Assembly (NCBI GenBank): GCA_035934015.1
Contig: DASYYH010000006.1
Location: 248,001-312,000 of the forward strand
Direction: 5' to 3'
DNA: 64,000 nt
Origin: Candidatus Acidiferrales bacterium
GTDB taxonomy: Bacteria; Acidobacteriota; Terriglobia; Acidiferrales; UBA7541
Made by a program: the position numbers and the translations under genes. This document shows, one piece after another, positions 49,153 through 57,556 of this stretch (position 1 is the stretch's first letter; the number at the start of each line of letters is the position of its first letter). The notes beneath the pieces are model-generated. The model saw only the letters and a program-made list of their open reading frames with translations, was not told the DNA's origin and searched no databases.

Positions 49153-50067
49153 TCAATCCTCCAGCACACTCACGTCCAGCTTTTCCACGCTCGCCGGATT
49201 CGTCACGATATCCACTCGCGCGATCTTTCCTTGCTCAATGGTGAGCCGTATCGCACGGGATAGCTTTCCATTCTGCGCCATCACCAGCCCGACCGCTCCA
49301 TCCACCAGCGCCGCCTGCGTGAACTGCATTCGTATCGCCTGCGCGTACGCTATCGCGCCTCGCGCCCAATTCTCCGCGCCACGAATCTCCCTCGGAGGAG
49401 CCCCTGGACGTCCCGCCGCATGATCCACTCTCACCACCACATCGGGATCCAGCAGCTTCAATAACCCGTTGAAATCGCCCGCGCGCAGCGCGCCCAAAAA
49501 ACTCTCCGCAATTTTCCGGTGTTCCGCCAGGCTGGCGCTCGTTCCGCTCGGAGCCGCCGCGCCGTGTACCCGCCTTCTCGCCCGGCTCGCCAGTTGCCTC
49601 GCCGCATCTTCCGAACGCCCCACAATCGGCGCAATCTCCTCGAACGGCACGGCAAACATATCGTGCAGCACAAACGCCAGCCGCTCCGCCGGCTCCAGCC
49701 GGTCCAGCACCACCAGCAGCGCCGCGCCCACCGCATCCGCCAGCACAGCCTCCTGCTCTGGATCCATCTTCTTCGCCGGAATCTCCCGTACCGCCGCCGT
49801 TTGCGGCGCCGGCTCATCCAGTGATTCCTCCCGCCGCGAATTGCGCGCCCGCAGCATATCCAGGCACACGCGCGCCGCCACGGTCGTCAGCCATCCGCCC
49901 AGATTTTCCACCTCGCTCACGTCCGTCCGGCTCAGCCGCAGCCACGTTTCCTGCACCGCGTCGTCCGCCTCGCCCCCCGACCCCAGCATCCGGTACGCCA
50001 CCGCGCGCAAATGCCCGCGATTTTCCTCGAACCGTTCCGCCAGCCATTCATTCCCGCCCATGGTCAT
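49153..50067 (-). CDS. sigJ: ECF41-type RNA polymerase sigma factor (SigJ-like) with SnoaL-like C-terminal domain
   Basis: 304 residues, ATG overlapping the doxX stop by 4 bp, AAAGGA upstream. Sigma-2 region at about 8-75 (FEENRGHLRAVAYRMLGSGG, ADDAVQETWLRLSRTD, LTTVAARVCLDMLRAR) and sigma-4 at about 110-175 (LDRLEPAERLAFVLHDMFAV, IAPIVGRSEDAARQLASRAR). The C-terminal SnoaL-like extension (about 185-304) is the fused regulatory domain of ECF41 factors, used instead of an anti-sigma protein. The usual WLPEP linker motif is absent and NPDKL is altered (NPASVEKL), so it is a variant member. It shares an operon with doxX and faces a carboxymuconolactone decarboxylase gene, the standard ECF41 partner; both promoters fit the ECF41 consensus. 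Confidence 0.9.
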   Translation of the reverse strand: MTMGGNEWLAERFEENRGHLRAVAYRMLGSGGEADDAVQETWLRLSRTDVSEVENLGGWLTTVAARVCLDMLRARNSRREESLDEPAPQTAAVREIPAKKMDPEQEAVLADAVGAALLVVLDRLEPAERLAFVLHDMFAVPFEEIAPIVGRSEDAARQLASRARRRVHGAAAPSGTSASLAEHRKIAESFLGALRAGDFNGLLKLLDPDVVVRVDHAAGRPGAPPREIRGAENWARGAIAYAQAIRMQFTQAALVDGAVGLVMAQNGKLSRAIRLTIEQGKIARVDIVTNPASVEKLDVSVLED

Positions 50068-50468
50068 ATCCTTTCACCTTCGCGTGCGTTCGCCGCGAAC
50101 AAAACCCCCAGCGTCCGCCTCGGCGGCCGCAGCGCCCATGACGCCATCGCCAGCGCGGCGATGATCAGCGGCACAATCGCTTCCGTCCACTGACTGCAGG
50201 CGGCATGCGAGGCGGCCGCGCCGCTCATCTCGAAGAAGATTCCCGCATACGCCCATTCTTTGATTCGTCCAAACCCAGGAACCAGCACCGCCGGAACCGC
50301 CAGCAGTTTCCACACCCCCACGATCGGCAGCAAATAGACGGGATATCCGAGGCCCGTGACCACCCCAACGACGTAGTGCGTGCGGGCCACATCCCACACA
50401 CCGCCGGTCAGCAATTCCGCGGCCAGCAATCCAGTAAGTATCCAGTAACCGATTTCCTTGGCCTTCAC
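50064..50468 (-). CDS. DoxX-like membrane protein
   Basis: 134 residues from the GTG at 50466-50468, chosen because GGGAGG lies 5 bases upstream and the result has the usual length of DoxX-like proteins; the open frame reaches back to 50627 across the promoter region, which is improbable. Four helices: IGYWILTGLLAAELLTGGVW, LGYPVYLLPIVGVWKLLAVP with the motif GVWKLLA, EWAYAGIFFEMSGAAASHAA and AIVPLIIAALAMASWAL. These are typical of DoxX_2, linked to redox or oxidative-stress functions in the membrane. It is co-transcribed with sigJ (ATGA overlap) and so probably under its own product's control. Confidence 0.8.
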   Translation of the reverse strand: MKAKEIGYWILTGLLAAELLTGGVWDVARTHYVVGVVTGLGYPVYLLPIVGVWKLLAVPAVLVPGFGRIKEWAYAGIFFEMSGAAASHAACSQWTEAIVPLIIAALAMASWALRPPRRTLGVLFAANAREGERI

Positions 50469-50552: not shown

Positions 50553-50579
50553 TGTCACATTTTCCCGCCGTGCTTCGTC
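50553..50579 (+). promoter_or_regulatory. ECF41 promoter driving the carboxymuconolactone decarboxylase gene
   Basis: TGTCACA (50553-50559), 16-bp spacer, CGTC (50576-50579): an exact match to the published ECF41 consensus (TGTCACA at -35, CGTC at -10). It precedes the ATG at 50630 by 50 bp on the same strand. Confidence 0.85.
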
Positions 50580-50587
50580 AGGGTATT

Positions 50588-50614
50588 GACGAACGGATTT
50601 CAATTTTTGTGACA
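50588..50614 (-). promoter_or_regulatory. ECF41 promoter driving doxX-sigJ
   Basis: Read on the minus strand, TGTCACA (50614-50608), 16-bp spacer, CGTC (50591-50588): a second exact match. It directs transcription leftwards to doxX (GTG 50468) and sigJ, implying autoregulation. Its -10 lies only 8 bp from the -10 of the opposing promoter. Confidence 0.82.
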
Positions 50615-50629
50615 AGGAGAATTCCAATC

Positions 50630-51133
50630 ATGCAATCAAGAATGCCACATCCGGTGATGTTTTACCCCGAGGCCATACAGGCTCTCATGGCTCTCGGCAA
50701 GGCCACAGAAGCCTCCAGCGTTCCCGCGCGCACCTTCGAGCTGATTCATCTTCGCGCCAGCCAGATCAATGGCTGCAGCGTTTGCCTGGACATGCACGCG
50801 CGCAATCTCAAGAAGATGGACGAAACCGACGAGCGCCTCTACACCGTTGCCGCCTGGCGCGATGCCCCTTATTTCACTGACGCCGAGCGCGCCGCTCTCG
50901 CTCTCGCCGAATCCGTCACGCGCTTGAGCGACCGTTCCGATCCTGTCCCCGACCACGTCTGGGCCGAAGCCGCGCGCCACTATGACGAGAAGGCTCTCGC
51001 CGCTCTGCTTCTCCACATCGCCGCCATCAATGTCTGGAATCGCTTGAATGTCGCAACCGGGCAGGTCGCCGGCGAGTGGATGAAGAACGCCGCCGCGAAA
51101 AAATGGGTCGAAACCGCCAGCGCCTCGCGCTAA
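50630..51133 (+). CDS. Carboxymuconolactone decarboxylase / AhpD-like protein
   Basis: 167 residues from ATG 50630, with AAGGAG 8 bases upstream; the frame is open to 50570 but would overlap the promoter. The AhpD-like core has the redox motif GCSVCLDMHARNLKK (CxxC and His, about 48-62), preceded by RTFELIHLRASQIN, then ERLYTVAAWRDAPYFTDAER and LLLHIAAINVWNRLNVATGQ. Such proteins act as small peroxidase or alkylhydroperoxidase-like enzymes using the CxxC. They are the most frequent target of ECF41 sigma factors, and the ECF41 promoter upstream fits. Length is normal. Confidence 0.9.
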   Translation: MQSRMPHPVMFYPEAIQALMALGKATEASSVPARTFELIHLRASQINGCSVCLDMHARNLKKMDETDERLYTVAAWRDAPYFTDAERAALALAESVTRLSDRSDPVPDHVWAEAARHYDEKALAALLLHIAAINVWNRLNVATGQVAGEWMKNAAAKKWVETASASR

Positions 51134-51964: not shown

Positions 51965-51993
51965 TTGACAAACCATTTACACTCTGGTATACA
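51965..51993 (+). promoter_or_regulatory. Sigma-70 type promoter for the gene at 52109
   Basis: TTGACA (51965-51970), 17-bp spacer, TATACA (51988-51993): near-consensus. It lies about 115 bp before the ATG at 52109. The whole 51784-52108 gap holds only this promoter, the tiny minus-strand ORF and the upstream -10 of the Cys-rich gene. Confidence 0.65.
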
Positions 51994-52108
51994 TCGTTCA
52001 ACATTATTGCTTGCAGCACCGGCCAAGGGCAACGTTAGGCCACCGACCCTTCCGCCTCAGAAAATCGCTAGAAATCTAGCCAAATTAAAATTCAAAGGAG
52101 AAACCCCA

Positions 52109-52987
52109 ATGGCGCCTCAGTCCGCCAACGAACGCTACGCCTCTGTCCTTTCCGCCAAAATAAACGATCTTCTCGCCCAGGACGGTTCGCCGCTCGCCGA
52201 ACCCTCCGCTGCTCCGTCCTCGCGCAAACCAAGCAAATCCAAACCCCATCCCCGCCGCGTCGCGGGCCATGAACGCAATGGACGCCACAGCCGCAAATGC
52301 CAGATCTGCAATCATCCGGATCGCCAGGCCATCGAGGACGATTTCTTGGACTGGAACAGAGCCTCCTGGATTCAAGAATCCTACGGTTTGCGCGGCGAGT
52401 CCGTCATCTACCGTCACGCTCGCACCACTGGACTCGATGTCCGCCGCCGCGAAAACCTCCGCGCGGTCGTCGAAAAAGTCCTCGAAGAGGTCAGTTTCAT
52501 TAAGACGCCCACGGCCTTCGCGGTTCTCCGCGCCGTCCGCACTCTCGCCTGCCTCAATGAACGCGGCCAGTGGACCGAGCCGCCCACCACGCATCACGTC
52601 GTCTCAATCACCAAACCACCGGCGAAGTCCGCCAACTCTTCCACATCCACAGCCCCGCGCCGCACTGCCCGTCGCTCGCCCATGCAAATGATCTCCGATC
52701 CCTCCCGGATCACATCCGCGAAACCCGCTCCCGCTCCATCGCTCCGTCCCGGCTCCGCTGCCCGTAAATCCCAAAATTCGGCCCCGCTCTCTCGCGAATC
52801 TCTGGCCTCCAGCATCCCGCCTCCCAGTTCTAATCGACAGACCTATGAAAAATTAGAAATGGACGCAACTCGTTCAAAACAAAGATCGGAGCTCATTTCT
52901 AATCGACAGACACAGCGCATTTTGAGGGAGAACGCTTTTATGCCGCGCCCGCCGTCACGCTGCAAAAAAATCCGGCGTCCCGTTGTT
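52109..52987 (+). CDS. Zinc-finger-like protein of unknown function; 3' end unresolved
   Basis: Starts at ATG 52109 with AAAGGAG 8 bases upstream and a good promoter at 51965. The first 50 residues are Ser/Pro/Lys-rich. The core (about 52-155) has CQICNHPDRQAIEDDFLDWN, SYGLRGESVIYRHARTTGLD, RRRENLRAVVEKVLEEVSF and PTAFAVLRAVRTLACLNERG, where CxxC and two His could bind zinc next to a helix-turn-helix-like segment. A disordered tail follows, with the 15-bp direct repeat TTCTAATCGACAGAC at 52829 and 52897. The end given is only where the next gene's stop lies: no stop occurs in this frame until 57484, so the true 3' end is unknown. A frameshift, assembly error or natural readthrough could explain this. 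Confidence 0.5.
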
Positions 52988-53638
52988 TCATTCCGGGCCG
53001 AGGGGCAGGAAGTACTGCGTGCCTTTCACTGGCTGCTTCAGCCGCCGCAGCAGCTCCTGCAAATCCTGGTTGCGCTCCACGAAGTCGATGTCCGACGTGT
53101 CCACCACCAGCAGATTCGACGCCGAATAGTGAAAGAAAAAATGCTCGTATGCCTGCGCGATGGTTTCCAGATACTCCGGCGAAATGTTCGATTCCTCCGG
53201 CGCGCCTTTTTTCGAGATGCGCCGCTTCAGCACTTCCGGTTTGGCCTGAAGATAAATCACCAGGTCGGGGATGGTCAGCGAAGACGCCAGCATTTCGTAG
53301 TAGCGCTCGTAAAGCTTCAGCTCTTCGTTGTCCAGGTTGACGTAGGCGAAAATTTTGTCTTTCTCGAAAAGAAAATCGCTCACCACCGGCCCGGGGTTTT
53401 TTTCCCGGTCGATTTCCACCAGCCGCTGATGCCGCTCCATCAGGAAATGCATCTGCGCCGCGAATGCCGCTCCCGGTTTTTCGTCGTAGAAAGCGCTCAG
53501 GAAAGGATTATCTTCGCAATCGAAGACGCGCCGCGCGTGCAATCGTTCCGCCAGAATTTTCGCCAGCGTGGATTTGCCGACGCGAATCGGCCCTTCGATC
53601 GCAAAATAGCGCGGCGTCTTGAATTTCGGGTCCGCCAT
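52988..53638 (-). CDS. Deoxynucleoside kinase
   Basis: 216 residues, close to the family norm. The P-loop is GPIRVGKST (about 16-24), followed by DCEDNPFLSAFYDEKPGA, the ERH-type helix LMERHQRLVEIDREKN, VSDFLFEKDKIFAY (DRS-like region) and the lid KAEVLKRR-type sequence KPEVLKRRISKKG, ending with LLVVDTSDIDFVERNQDLQE. It phosphorylates deoxynucleosides to dNMPs in the cytoplasm (salvage). The stop lies inside the long frame of the opposite-strand zinc-finger-like gene. 129 bp separate it from the tryptophanase gene on the same strand. Confidence 0.87.
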   Translation of the reverse strand: MADPKFKTPRYFAIEGPIRVGKSTLAKILAERLHARRVFDCEDNPFLSAFYDEKPGAAFAAQMHFLMERHQRLVEIDREKNPGPVVSDFLFEKDKIFAYVNLDNEELKLYERYYEMLASSLTIPDLVIYLQAKPEVLKRRISKKGAPEESNISPEYLETIAQAYEHFFFHYSASNLLVVDTSDIDFVERNQDLQELLRRLKQPVKGTQYFLPLGPE

Positions 53639-53767
53639 GAACGCGGCATTATAGCAAATGCAAGTTGCCCGCGCGGCAACTCCGCTTTACAGTGCGCACC
53701 GCGCCCGTTCACGCCGCGCCGTTCGCGGCTTCGGGAAACGCGCCCCGCAAAAAAGCAAAATGCAAAA

Positions 53768-55171
53768 TCACCGCTCGCCTTTGTGCATCCTCGCCGGCCG
53801 GAATCGCGCCGTGAAGTGCCGCAGGAAGGGCGCCTGATATGTCAATTCCAGCCCGCGGATTTTTTTGCGCCGCCGCCACACTTCGAGGATCACTTCGACC
53901 ACGTAGTCGATGTGCGATTGCGTGTAAACGCGCCGCGGAATCGCCAGCCGCAGCAGGTCCATCGGTCCCGGATGCTCCACGCCCTTTTCGTCGCGCTTCC
54001 CGAACATCAGCGAGCCGATTTCGACGGAGCGGATTCCGCCCTCGATATACAGTTCCGCCGCCAGCGCTACGCCGGGAAATTGTGCCGGCGGAATGTGCGG
54101 CAAAAATTCCCGCGCATCGATATAAATCGCGTGCCCGCCCGGCGGCTGCACAATCGGCACGCCTTCCGCGGCAATGTGATCGCCCAGATACGCCGTGGAG
54201 ACGATGCGGTAATTCAAATAATCTTCGTCGAGCGCTTCGTTCAATCCCACAGCGATGGCGTCCAGATCGCGCCCCGCGAGTCCGCCGTATGTGGGGAAAC
54301 CTTCCGTCAGAATCAGCAAATCTTTTTCCTGCTGTGCCAGCAAATCATTGTTGGTGCAGAGGAATCCTCCGATATTCGCGAGGCCGTCTTTTTTCGCGGA
54401 CATTGTACAGCCGTCGGCATGGCGAAACATTTCCTGAGCGATTTCGCGCGGAGATCTTTTCGCAAAGCCGGGTTCGCGGAGTTTTATGAAGTACGCATTT
54501 TCGGCAAAGCGGCACGCATCGATATACAGCGGAATCTTGTGGCGCGCGCAGATTTTCTTCACCGCTTTGATGTTTTCGAGCGACACGGGCTGGCCGCCGC
54601 CGGAATTATTCGTCGCCGTGAGCATCACGAGCGGCACGCGCTTCGCGCCCACACGGTCGATCACAGCAGTGAGCTTCGCCGTGTCCATGTTGCCTTTGAA
54701 GGGATGGCGCGTCTGCGGCTCGCGCGCTTCGGCGATGGGAATATCCAGCGCTTCGGCGCCGACGAATTCGCAATTCGCGCGCGTCGTATCGAAATGCGTG
54801 TTGTTGGGAACCACGTCGCCTTTTTTGCACATCACTCCGAAGAGAATTCGCTCCGCGGCGCGCCCCTGATGCGTGGGAATCACGTGCTTGAATCCCATGA
54901 TGGCCTGAATGGACTTGCGAAAGCGCTGGAAGCTCGGCGAGCCGGCATACGACTCGTCGCCGCGCATCATCGCGGCCCACTGCTCGGTGGACATCGCGTT
55001 CGTGCCGGAGTCGGTGAGCAGATCGATCAAAATGTCGTCGGAAGCGACGAGAAAAAGATTGTAGCCCGCGGCGGCGAGAAGCTTCTCGCGTTCGCGGCGC
55101 GTGGTGCCGCGAATCGGCTCAACGGACTTGATGCGAAACGGCTCGATGATCGTCTTGATGGGCATGAGCAA
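53768..55171 (-). CDS. tnaA: Tryptophanase (tryptophan indole-lyase), PLP-dependent
   Basis: 467 residues, the usual length for tryptophanase and tyrosine phenol-lyase. PLP Lys is Lys261 in TMSAKKDGLANIGG; other family motifs are SDSGTNAMS-like LTDSGTNAMSTEQW, GDESYAGSPSF, PTHQGRAAERILF and LTATNNSGGGQP. Two positions separate the family: tyrosine phenol-lyase has Thr in FTTTR and MERG near the end, whereas this protein has Asp128 in HFDTTR and VEIGS at 383-387, as in tryptophanase. It should cleave tryptophan to indole, pyruvate and ammonia in the cytoplasm. Starts at MLM or two codons later; ribosome binding site weak. No leader peptide or permease neighbour is visible. Confidence 0.88.
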   Translation of the reverse strand: MLMPIKTIIEPFRIKSVEPIRGTTRREREKLLAAAGYNLFLVASDDILIDLLTDSGTNAMSTEQWAAMMRGDESYAGSPSFQRFRKSIQAIMGFKHVIPTHQGRAAERILFGVMCKKGDVVPNNTHFDTTRANCEFVGAEALDIPIAEAREPQTRHPFKGNMDTAKLTAVIDRVGAKRVPLVMLTATNNSGGGQPVSLENIKAVKKICARHKIPLYIDACRFAENAYFIKLREPGFAKRSPREIAQEMFRHADGCTMSAKKDGLANIGGFLCTNNDLLAQQEKDLLILTEGFPTYGGLAGRDLDAIAVGLNEALDEDYLNYRIVSTAYLGDHIAAEGVPIVQPPGGHAIYIDAREFLPHIPPAQFPGVALAAELYIEGGIRSVEIGSLMFGKRDEKGVEHPGPMDLLRLAIPRRVYTQSHIDYVVEVILEVWRRRKKIRGLELTYQAPFLRHFTARFRPARMHKGER

Positions 55172-55291
55172 TTATCTCAGGCGAAAGACGAAAGTGAAAG
55201 CGCGCTTCGCCGCATCGCATCGCGGCAGGGAAATGCCGCAAAGAAATTCGCGCAGCGCGCGATTCATCTCATTGACGCAGGCAATGCGCCG

Positions 55292-57556
55292 CTACCAACT
55301 GCGCGAGAGCGCGTCAACGATGTGCGCGAGGCCATCGAGATCGCGCAGGTCGATCACTTCACCCGGCGAATGCGAATAGCGCAGGGGCCAGCCGAGCGCG
55401 ACGTCAATCGAGCCGTAGCGCAAAAACGCAGAGCCGTCGTTGCCGCCGCCCGTGGTTCCGTATTGCACCGGAATATGATTGGCGCGAGCGATGGAAACAA
55501 CTTTTTCGACCAGTTTGCGGGGAACAATACTGGAATTGTCCACGGCGCGGACAACGAATCCGTCGCCGAGTTTGGCGTCGCCGAAGCGCTTGGACTCAAG
55601 CGGAGAATCGGAGCTGACGAAAGTGTCGATGGCGAAGACGTATTGCGGCGCTTTGCCTTCGGCGCCAAGCCGCGCGGCGAGTTTGCCGGCGCCGACGAGG
55701 CCGAGCTCTTCACCCGTGGACCAAACGAATGTGACGTCGCGGTCTTTCAGATTCGGCCCGAGCGTCCACGCGGCGGAAATCAGCGCGGTGTCGCCGACGC
55801 GATCGTCGAAGCTGCGCGCATTGGCGCGTGTGCCGGCGAGGCGGCGGTATTTCTTCGGAATGGTGATGTAGTCGCCGGCGGCGATGCCCATTTGCGCAAC
55901 TTCCTCAGGCGAACGCGCGCCCACGTCGGCGCGATACATCAACCCGCGGCCGCGGGGAAACTGGAAGCCGGGCTCGTCCCAGCCTTCGGGCAGCTCCATC
56001 ACGGCGGGAATGTCGCGGCCATTCATGGTGTGAACCAGCGCGGCGTGGCCCAGGAAATAATTGGGCAGTCCGCCTCCGCCGCTGACAGCGAGTTTTCCAT
56101 TGGGCAAAATTTCCTGAACGACGTAGCCGATTTCATCCATGTGCGCGACGAACATGATGCTGGGAACATGAGCAGAAGGCGGAGCGGAGCCGATTTGAAG
56201 AATGAGATTTCCGGCGTCGTCGGTTTCAGGCTTGGCCCACTTCGGGAGCAGGCTTTTCACCGCGTCGCGCATGCGGGCTTCATGCTCGCTGACGGCATAG
56301 GTTTCGACGAGATGCTTCAGGATCTGTTCGTTCGTCGGCGGCGTGTCCCACAAACTGGCAGGCTGAGACGACGCAATGCTGTTGGTTGCGGGCTCGGTTG
56401 CGACCGAGCCTTGCGCGTAGGCTTCGAGGAGATGCGTCAGATCCATCAGGTCATTCGCAGAGATGATTTCCGCAGGCGTGTCCGGCCAGGCGGTGGCAAT
56501 CGCGAGGTGCGCGGTTTTATCGGGAGTCTTCGGCGGGGCAAGATAGCTCGGCGGCATCATCGCGCCGGAAAAATCCATCGCAATGGGAATTCGATTGGAA
56601 TCGGCGAGAGATTTGAGGTCCTGAGCGAAACCAGAGAAATTTCCGCTCGTATCCTGCGAACCAACGAGCACGCCGCTGCCCAAATCGCGGCGCGGCCCGC
56701 GATGCAACGTAGGCTCGGTGGGAATCGGCGGCGCAGCGGTCAGGCGGCCGACGTAGATGAGTTCGTCGGGGTTCTCTTCATCAATCAGACGCTCGAGGCC
56801 GCGCGCGCCAGCCCATTGCTGGGCCGCAAAGGCGACGACCAGCGTGCCATTGATTTTCGAAGGATCGATGTGGCGCAGCAGATCGACGAGAGCGGCGTCG
56901 CCGAAGCGGTCGCCGACAGCAGCGGCAGTATAGGAATTATTATCGAGCGAAAAGAGAGTGCGGTCCATGACCACGGGACTCAGGAGATCGGCGCCGAGGC
57001 GCTTCACTTCGGCAGCGGAACTGGCGCCAACGTCAACGTACATATTTTCGATGTCGGAAGGATCGGGGGGATGGAGACGTCCGGGGAGGAGATGAATGGA
57101 AAGACCGGCAACGACCCCGGGGATCCATTTGCCGGAGGCAGATTGAATTTCGACGGGCTGCGCGGAATAGAGCTCGTTGAAGAGCGGAAGATTACCGAAC
57201 TGCGGGAGGCGCTGGAGCTGAATGTAGCCGTCGTCGGTGATGTTACCGACAACGTAGCCAGGCTCGTCCATGGGCGCGACGATGAGGCGCTTGGGGCTGC
57301 CGCTGCCGATGGTGACGATAACGTCATCGAGATTGTCGGACTTTATATCCAATTGGGGCGAAAAAGATTTCAGGCGGCCGCGAATATCCGCGGCGAGCGC
57401 GGATTCATAGCCGGGAACGGCCGGAGTTTCGGCGAATTGGCGAAGGTCGTCGCCGAGCGAGCCGGGAACTTTGCCGGAGTCTGATTGTGCGAATGCGGAT
57501 GGAGTGATGCAGGCGAAGATCGCGACGAAAAGAAAGGAGCAGGAACGTTTTATCAT
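55292..57556 (-). CDS. Exported double M42 peptidase: inactive N-terminal copy fused to intact C-terminal copy
   Basis: 754 residues from the ATG at 57554-57556 (MIKRSCSFLFVAIFACITPS), giving a signal peptide; 96 more upstream codons are open. The C-terminal M42 domain (about 400-754) has all metal and catalytic residues: His472 (VAHMDEIGYVV), Asp584 (FDDR), Glu616-Glu617 (GEELGLVGAG), Asp644 (AIDT) and His729 (SHSPGE). The N-terminal copy (about 30-385) aligns along its length but has Pro95 (VAPMDEPGYVV), Gly215 (VGDR), Gln246-Gln247 (AQQWAGARG), Gly270 and Asp359 (PDTPAE) instead, so it cannot bind metals. M42 enzymes are large dodecameric aminopeptidases; export and fusion are unusual. Confidence 0.88.
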   Translation of the reverse strand: MIKRSCSFLFVAIFACITPSAFAQSDSGKVPGSLGDDLRQFAETPAVPGYESALAADIRGRLKSFSPQLDIKSDNLDDVIVTIGSGSPKRLIVAPMDEPGYVVGNITDDGYIQLQRLPQFGNLPLFNELYSAQPVEIQSASGKWIPGVVAGLSIHLLPGRLHPPDPSDIENMYVDVGASSAAEVKRLGADLLSPVVMDRTLFSLDNNSYTAAAVGDRFGDAALVDLLRHIDPSKINGTLVVAFAAQQWAGARGLERLIDEENPDELIYVGRLTAAPPIPTEPTLHRGPRRDLGSGVLVGSQDTSGNFSGFAQDLKSLADSNRIPIAMDFSGAMMPPSYLAPPKTPDKTAHLAIATAWPDTPAEIISANDLMDLTHLLEAYAQGSVATEPATNSIASSQPASLWDTPPTNEQILKHLVETYAVSEHEARMRDAVKSLLPKWAKPETDDAGNLILQIGSAPPSAHVPSIMFVAHMDEIGYVVQEILPNGKLAVSGGGGLPNYFLGHAALVHTMNGRDIPAVMELPEGWDEPGFQFPRGRGLMYRADVGARSPEEVAQMGIAAGDYITIPKKYRRLAGTRANARSFDDRVGDTALISAAWTLGPNLKDRDVTFVWSTGEELGLVGAGKLAARLGAEGKAPQYVFAIDTFVSSDSPLESKRFGDAKLGDGFVVRAVDNSSIVPRKLVEKVVSIARANHIPVQYGTTGGGNDGSAFLRYGSIDVALGWPLRYSHSPGEVIDLRDLDGLAHIVDALSRSW

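Follow-up and report, generated by a model that had tools for sequence, protein, structure and literature searches.

Two facing promoters lie between a sigma factor operon and a decarboxylase gene

Why should two promoters of one type point at each other, and overlap, between a regulator and the gene that it presumably controls? The window, by which we mean the whole stretch of 64,000 bp analysed here, contains only two matches to TGTCACA-N16-CGTC, against 0.11 expected from shuffling. Both direct reading and a pattern search place one of them, TGTCACATTTTCCCGCCGTGCTTCGTC, on the plus strand (50553-50579) and the second, TGTCACAAAAATTGAAATCCGTTCGTC, on the minus strand (50614-50588). Together they form a facing pair of 62 bp from end to end, with the CGTC elements exactly 8 bp apart (50580-50587, AGGGTATT). 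Sequence and positions agree with a preliminary description of the locus, which had reported the motif once per strand within 62 bp and the -10 elements 8 bp apart. The orientation of the two sites also confirmed its assignment of the plus-strand promoter to the decarboxylase gene and of the minus-strand promoter to doxX and the sigma factor gene. The features of the locus are as follows.

50553..50559, plus strand: -35 element (TGTCACA) of the decarboxylase-facing promoter, from the sequence; motif as in PMC3426412
50576..50579, plus strand: -10 element (CGTC) of the decarboxylase-facing promoter, from the sequence
50588, plus strand: predicted +1 (G) of the decarboxylase transcript, the ninth base after CGTC, based on the Sinorhizobium meliloti start site and the pyrimidine-8/purine-9 signature
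50608..50614, minus strand: -35 element (TGTCACA on the minus strand) of the doxX-sigma-facing promoter, from the sequence
50588..50591, minus strand: -10 element (CGTC on the minus strand) of the doxX-sigma-facing promoter, from the sequence
50579, minus strand: predicted +1 (G on the minus strand) of the doxX-sigma transcript, on the same basis as 50588
50580..50587, no strand: 8-bp middle segment, predicted from the geometry to be transcribed into neither RNA
50615..50619, plus strand: Shine-Dalgarno sequence AGGAG of the decarboxylase gene, from the sequence
50630..51133, plus strand: carboxymuconolactone decarboxylase (CMD)/AhpD-like gene, 167 aa, CxxC motif CSVC (CMD PF02627, E 1.7e-19; AhpD core TIGR00778)
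50064..50468, minus strand: DoxX_2 membrane protein gene, 134 aa, first in the sigma operon (Pfam PF13564; translation)
49153..50067, minus strand: ECF sigma factor gene with a C-terminal extension, 304 aa (Sigma70_r2 and r4_2)

The CMD gene, whose product has relatives in the PDB (7xw1, 2ijc), is the presumed target of the promoter pair. The GTG start of doxX at 50468 was picked by N-terminal comparison with two related loci (L129, L032), and the sigma gene overlaps the doxX stop by 4 bp. Further along the plus strand, an open frame of 1839 aa (51965-57484) lies antisense to tightly packed minus-strand genes, including a kinase-like (52988-53638) and a tryptophanase-like gene (53768-55171), both named from sequence alone; the long frame looks like a composition artefact.

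When the spacer was allowed to vary from 15 to 17 bp, the 3.37-Mb genome yielded five motif matches, and only the two in the window are paired. The other three are at about the chance level by our own scaling of the shuffle expectation from the window, and were set aside as candidates for extra targets elsewhere in the genome. A chance origin of the pair itself was ruled out by the shuffles and the genome-wide spacing distribution.

The sigma factor is ECF41-like and belongs to a separate clade

The sigma factor contains the sigma2 and sigma4 regions (PF04542, E 5.3e-14; PF08281, E 3.2e-09), and its residues 11-291 align to Mycobacterium tuberculosis SigJ (PDB 5xe7) with an E value of 2.7e-41. 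SigJ in that structure carries a SnoaL/NTF2-like extension of about 100 residues, while Pfam reports no SnoaL domain in the window's sigma, which scores 243.3 bits with the NCBIfam SigJ model, under the cut-off of 271. Two traits of ECF41 are present at the locus, namely a neighbouring CMD gene with a CxxC motif and TGTCACA-n16-CGTC upstream of both the target and the sigma operon. Canonical ECF41 sigma factors possess a WLPEP motif in the linker between sigma2 and sigma4 (PMC3426412), which contacts a C-terminal NPDKL motif (PMC7730460). Reading of the window's sigma sequence showed that WLPEP is absent and that NPASV stands in place of NPDKL.

In a FastTree phylogeny of 145 sigma sequences, with 34 loci in the set chosen by pattern, the facing promoter pairs are spread over a clade of 116, and a clade of 29 has none. 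WLPEP occurs in 28 of the 29 members of this latter, canonical operon-type clade vs 1 of the 116 in the clade that holds all facing pairs, and the broader pattern NP[DEAG][KR] in 21 of 29 vs 4 of 116. Newer groups neighbouring ECF41 that bear SnoaL domains include ECF56, ECF205, ECF294 and ECF295 (PMC8999054, PMC7730460). Since both motifs are missing and the clade is separate, we describe the window's sigma as ECF41-like and leave it outside ECF41 proper, an assignment made from sequence motifs and the tree. The earlier label "ECF41/SigJ" is therefore approximate: it holds for the type of promoter, and less well for a protein that lacks WLPEP and NPDKL and lies apart from the canonical operon-type ECF41 sigmas. 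Because the facing-pair clade lacks both motifs of the ECF41 intramolecular lock, control of its activity should differ. A DoxX_2 gene heads the sigma operon beside the promoter in several Acidobacteriota loci (the window, L032, L033 and L129); as ECF41-like sigmas are without anti-sigma factors, DoxX_2 is a candidate membrane partner.

The spacing of facing promoters is conserved across phyla

We scanned one genome per species for the facing pattern, allowing any middle gap of 0-30 bp and, in one of the spacers, any length of 15-17 bp. The scan returned at least 119 stretches, where about 1.4 would be expected at equal base frequencies by our own estimate, and at least 120 distinct pairs were found over about 57 genera and at least seven phyla. 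Among the matches listed, 115 of 123 counted elements have the 16/8/16 layout and 113 of 120 distinct facing pairs have a gap of 8 bp; the phyla represented there are Actinomycetota, Pseudomonadota, Acidobacteriota, Chloroflexota, Myxococcota, Nitrospirota and FCPU426. Broken down by phylum, again among the matches listed, the 8-bp gap is found in 75 of 80 pairs in Actinomycetota, 28 of 28 in Pseudomonadota, 6 of 6 plus the window in Acidobacteriota, and in single cases from Chloroflexota, Myxococcota and FCPU426, and the sole Nitrospirota case has a gap of 12 bp.

The genes beside the pairs were compared in the same way. A homologous sigma gene adjoins 111 of the 120 distinct pairs among the matches listed, several of the remainder lying at sequence ends, and in 59 of these 120 a CMD gene stands on the other side. 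Scanning of 43 other neighbours revealed NmrA/NAD-binding oxidoreductases (17), PNPOx-like proteins (4) and glyoxalases (4), together with single MFS, ABC and methyltransferase genes. Outside the CMD loci the targets are thus unrelated, indicating that the facing element outlives target replacement. A search of 201 relatives of the window's genome gave a single further genome with a facing pair; it belongs to the same class and a different family, and its pair keeps the 16/8/16 layout with largely different spacer sequence. The preliminary description had proposed to scan relatives and had named a second site "absent in all relatives" as the outcome that would count against it; the pair proved to be widely conserved with the same spacing.

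In many relatives (L009-L126), the start codon of the sigma gene lies partly within the opposing -35 element or directly next to it (start offsets 56, 61 and 63), either as GTG inside TGTGACA or as ATG at its end, and the promoter element doubles as the translation start region. The control region in these relatives is therefore barely larger than the element itself. One Ktedonobacteraceae locus (L169) has a gap-8 pair located some 200 bp before the sigma gene and a single consensus site nearer to it, which suggests an extra gene or promoter in between.

So that loci would not be chosen by their promoters, a survey blind to the pattern was anchored on sigma homologues from genomes across the window's class, Alphaproteobacteria and Actinomycetes, and upstream sites with up to two mismatches were recorded. 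Partner sites had a gap of 8 bp in 22 cases and of 9 bp in 2, and all 63 other gaps accounted for 2 cases. Within the window's class, gap-8 pairs occur at 13 of 18 loci, three have no site and two (L130, L140) have back-to-back promoters with 10 and 27 bp between the -35 elements. Gap-8 pairs were present in 9 of 69 loci in Actinomycetes and in 0 of 29 in the alphaproteobacterial part of this gene-anchored sample, whose loci belong to the different sigma clade. The locus is patchy, since a close sigma homologue is missing from three of four further genomes in the window's genus.

Facing is not the commonest layout everywhere. A search of 297 random actinomycete genomes for strict pairs found back-to-back pairs in 9 vs facing pairs in 3, at least two of these three being genomes brought in via facing-pair loci; the facing layout predominates only in the window's class (13 of 18). 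Five similar actinomycete loci (L274-L279) carry a back-to-back TGTGACA-N6-TGTCACA arrangement with the -35 elements 6 bp apart. Because back-to-back pairs exist, including in the window's class, a shared facing layout is not required for the circuit. A facing layout of ECF42-type promoters (TGTCG-N18-CGTC) was found in none of the 297 actinomycete genomes, giving no sign that the layout is general to ECF sigmas. On the sequence evidence, then, the spacing is fixed whenever these promoters face each other, and facing is not the rule for all such loci.

An 8-bp gap would make each -10 element part of the opposing start site

An ECF41 promoter in S. meliloti has a mapped start 9 nt after CGTC (PMC3616915). 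Its published sequence ends in ...CGTCATGGTGTCG, the G being the ninth base (PMC6180224, Table 1), and the ending CGTCATGGTGTCG was verified here. The ECF41 promoters of Bacillus licheniformis and Rhodobacter sphaeroides also start on a G, as determined by 5' RACE (PMC3426412). These start sites come from canonical ECF41 sigmas at unpaired promoters, and the window's sigma lies in a separate clade. Across 24 unpaired promoters, 79% have a pyrimidine at position 8 and 84% a purine at position 9, as is typical of -1 and +1. When the gap measures 8 bp, the ninth base is a G that pairs with the final C of the opposing CGTC, and the eighth pairs with the nucleotide just after that C; at the locus, 50588 is the predicted start as well as the complement of the last C in the opposing CGTC.

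Base composition in the pairs was then compared with that of unpaired promoters. Of 58 non-redundant pairs, 97% carry a purine directly after CGTC and 100% a pyrimidine at -1, mostly A and T. A T follows CGTC in 9 of 24 unpaired promoters vs 2 of 58 pairs (Fisher p = 1.6e-4). Among alphaproteobacterial half-sites, A is found at 34 of 34 in pairs, many of which are close relatives, vs 10 A, 8 T and 2 C in unpaired promoters. Such a bias is what starts in both directions would be expected to give. The middle six bases of the 58 non-redundant pairs have no dyad symmetry, so that the symmetry of the element follows the promoter positions. We infer that the 8-bp gap likely results from reciprocal initiators, in which the -1/+1 bases (TG) of each promoter would be the complement of the -10 end (CA) of the other.

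A bidirectional promoter may split initiation between regulator and target

We propose that the 62 bp form a bidirectional promoter for an ECF41-type sigma, whose two facing halves are interlocked and which splits initiation between the sigma operon and the target; we put the probability of this reading at roughly 0.72. The -10 end of each promoter (C-9 A-8) would serve as the -1/+1 (T G) of the other on the opposite strand. RNA polymerase carrying the sigma of the locus itself could bind facing either way, and the melted segment of some 14-16 bp would be almost identical in the two open complexes, at about 50576-50591, comprising the 8-bp middle with the flanking CGTC/GACG. One polymerase would then be accommodated at a time, with exclusion at the binding step, and each event would yield either decarboxylase mRNA (from 50588, rightwards) or doxX-sigma mRNA (from 50579, leftwards). 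The predicted starts are 9 bp apart, the RNAs would diverge without overlap behind polymerases moving away from each other, and the predicted 5' leaders measure 42 nt for the decarboxylase and 111 nt for doxX.

Under this scheme a single sigma would induce regulator and target together, at a ratio set by the two half-promoters. At high activity, firing towards the target would take initiation events from sigma autoactivation and so limit runaway positive feedback; by analogy with sigma70 bidirectional promoters, co-induction would prevail at a low sigma level and mutual limitation at a high one. At normal activity such limitation could be too small to matter, because basal bidirectional sigma70 promoters show no competition (PMC12825309). 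Judging from the comparative data, the facing layout is very probably a selected device by which regulator and target share each chance of activation. A broader claim can be made only tentatively and at somewhat below even odds: that the whole ECF clade uses a single-bubble, two-fold symmetric bidirectional promoter with base-pair-fixed spacing and each -10 doubling as the initiator of the other, in which autoactivation and target output compete at every initiation event, a hard-wired feedback limiter that replaces the missing anti-sigma control.

The alternative with the best standing, to which we give perhaps one chance in three, is a frozen ancestral layout: independent promoters overlapped once, the shared bases could no longer change without damage, and no regulatory benefit followed. 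A single old origin would fit the confinement of facing pairs to one sigma clade, the interlock would account for constancy without any benefit, and back-to-back arrangements occur in the same clade. Yet the layout has been kept across phyla and through target replacement, though losses and the back-to-back alternatives show that escape was possible.

It is unlikely that only one promoter functions and the other is a by-product, for instance a TGTGACA that overlaps the sigma translation start. The coincidence of start codon and opposing -35 in many relatives would suit such an explanation, as would the slightly more frequent imperfection of the target-facing -35 in the window's class. Against it, both sides retain the -35, -10 and initiator positions in different phyla, even at loci whose translation start is in another place, such as the window, where doxX intervenes; furthermore, motifs lie upstream of both genes in most divergent loci (Wecke et al., PMC3426412, Table 4).

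The preliminary description had envisaged that the start sites cross over and the polymerases collide or exclude each other, as a switch between the regulator operon and its target. Their facing orientation and overlap agree with the sequence, and exclusion at binding is expected from known footprints (PMC12825309), whereas head-on collision is not: with starts 9 nt after CGTC (PMC3616915), as the signature of unpaired promoters also indicates, the predicted transcripts diverge, and overlap would need starts less than 5 nt from CGTC. As for the switch, both sides have the same consensus and are presumably served by the same sigma, so that regulator and target would rise together. We therefore consider convergent starts with a collision-based switch quite improbable; the geometry predicts a splitter, with competition at each event, and not a toggle.

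Operators are usually far shorter than a 62-bp dyad, and an operator for a dimeric regulator, which the overall two-fold symmetry of the element might suggest, is highly improbable as a substitute for the promoter pair. It was rejected since dyad symmetry is lacking outside the promoter positions (neither the middle six bases nor the 16-bp spacers show dyad correlation above expectation) and each half-site is the ECF41 promoter motif as established by experiment (PMC3426412).

Comparison with known systems

Bidirectional sigma70 promoters and ECF41 motifs before both genes of divergent loci are known, and we found no account of the interlocked geometry in the open-access literature, nor any paper there that joins ECF41 with bidirectional or face-to-face promoters. 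Work on bidirectional promoters has mostly treated them as a side effect of the symmetry of the sigma70 -10 element. The window's element, with its deep conservation, single spacing, two complete promoters, and a regulator facing its sole apparent target, makes it testable whether evolution uses promoter exclusivity for control. The facing pair can also serve as a simple DNA marker in searches for this sigma clade and its targets, and it offers a possible mode of control for ECF sigmas that have neither an anti-sigma factor nor the known ECF41 intramolecular lock motifs.

The closest relatives in motif are the ECF41 loci of the type <ECF< >COE> (Wecke et al. 2012, PMC3426412). They share the promoter motif and the decarboxylase, oxidoreductase or epimerase neighbours, and among 55 divergent loci the motif precedes the sigma gene in 36 and the target in 41; a term search of that paper found no mention of the relative placement of the two motifs. 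Unlike these loci, the window has doxX before the sigma gene and a sigma without WLPEP. The SMb20029-rpoE9 locus of S. meliloti (PMC3616915, PMC6180224) likewise has the same motif and a decarboxylase target, and differs in being a co-directional operon with a single unpaired promoter, a canonical ECF41 sigma and a mapped start.

In geometry, the element resembles the sigma70 bidirectional promoters described by Warman, Grainger and colleagues (PMC10268837, PMC12825309), where starts lie 7-25 bp apart with the -10 element and the start reciprocally overlapping (PMC10268837), and two polymerases cannot bind at once (PMC12825309). Competition there is absent at basal activity and appears when one direction is strongly activated, and noise is lowered (PMC12825309). 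The window's element shares the divergent starts, here predicted to be 9 bp apart, and the reciprocal overlap of -10 and start site, in which C-9/A-8 would pair with G+1/T-1 given a +1 at position 9; this pairing is conserved in the 58 non-redundant pairs. The sigma70 promoters rely on the symmetry of one TATAAT-type -10, with starts mostly 18 bp apart. No such single shared element is present in the window; unlike the sigma70 type, it has two separate ECF -10 elements (the CGTC sequences), which would together act like a single one of another sigma class, two full -35 elements and a fixed distance of 8 bp, and the ECF sigma driving it would be among its own products.
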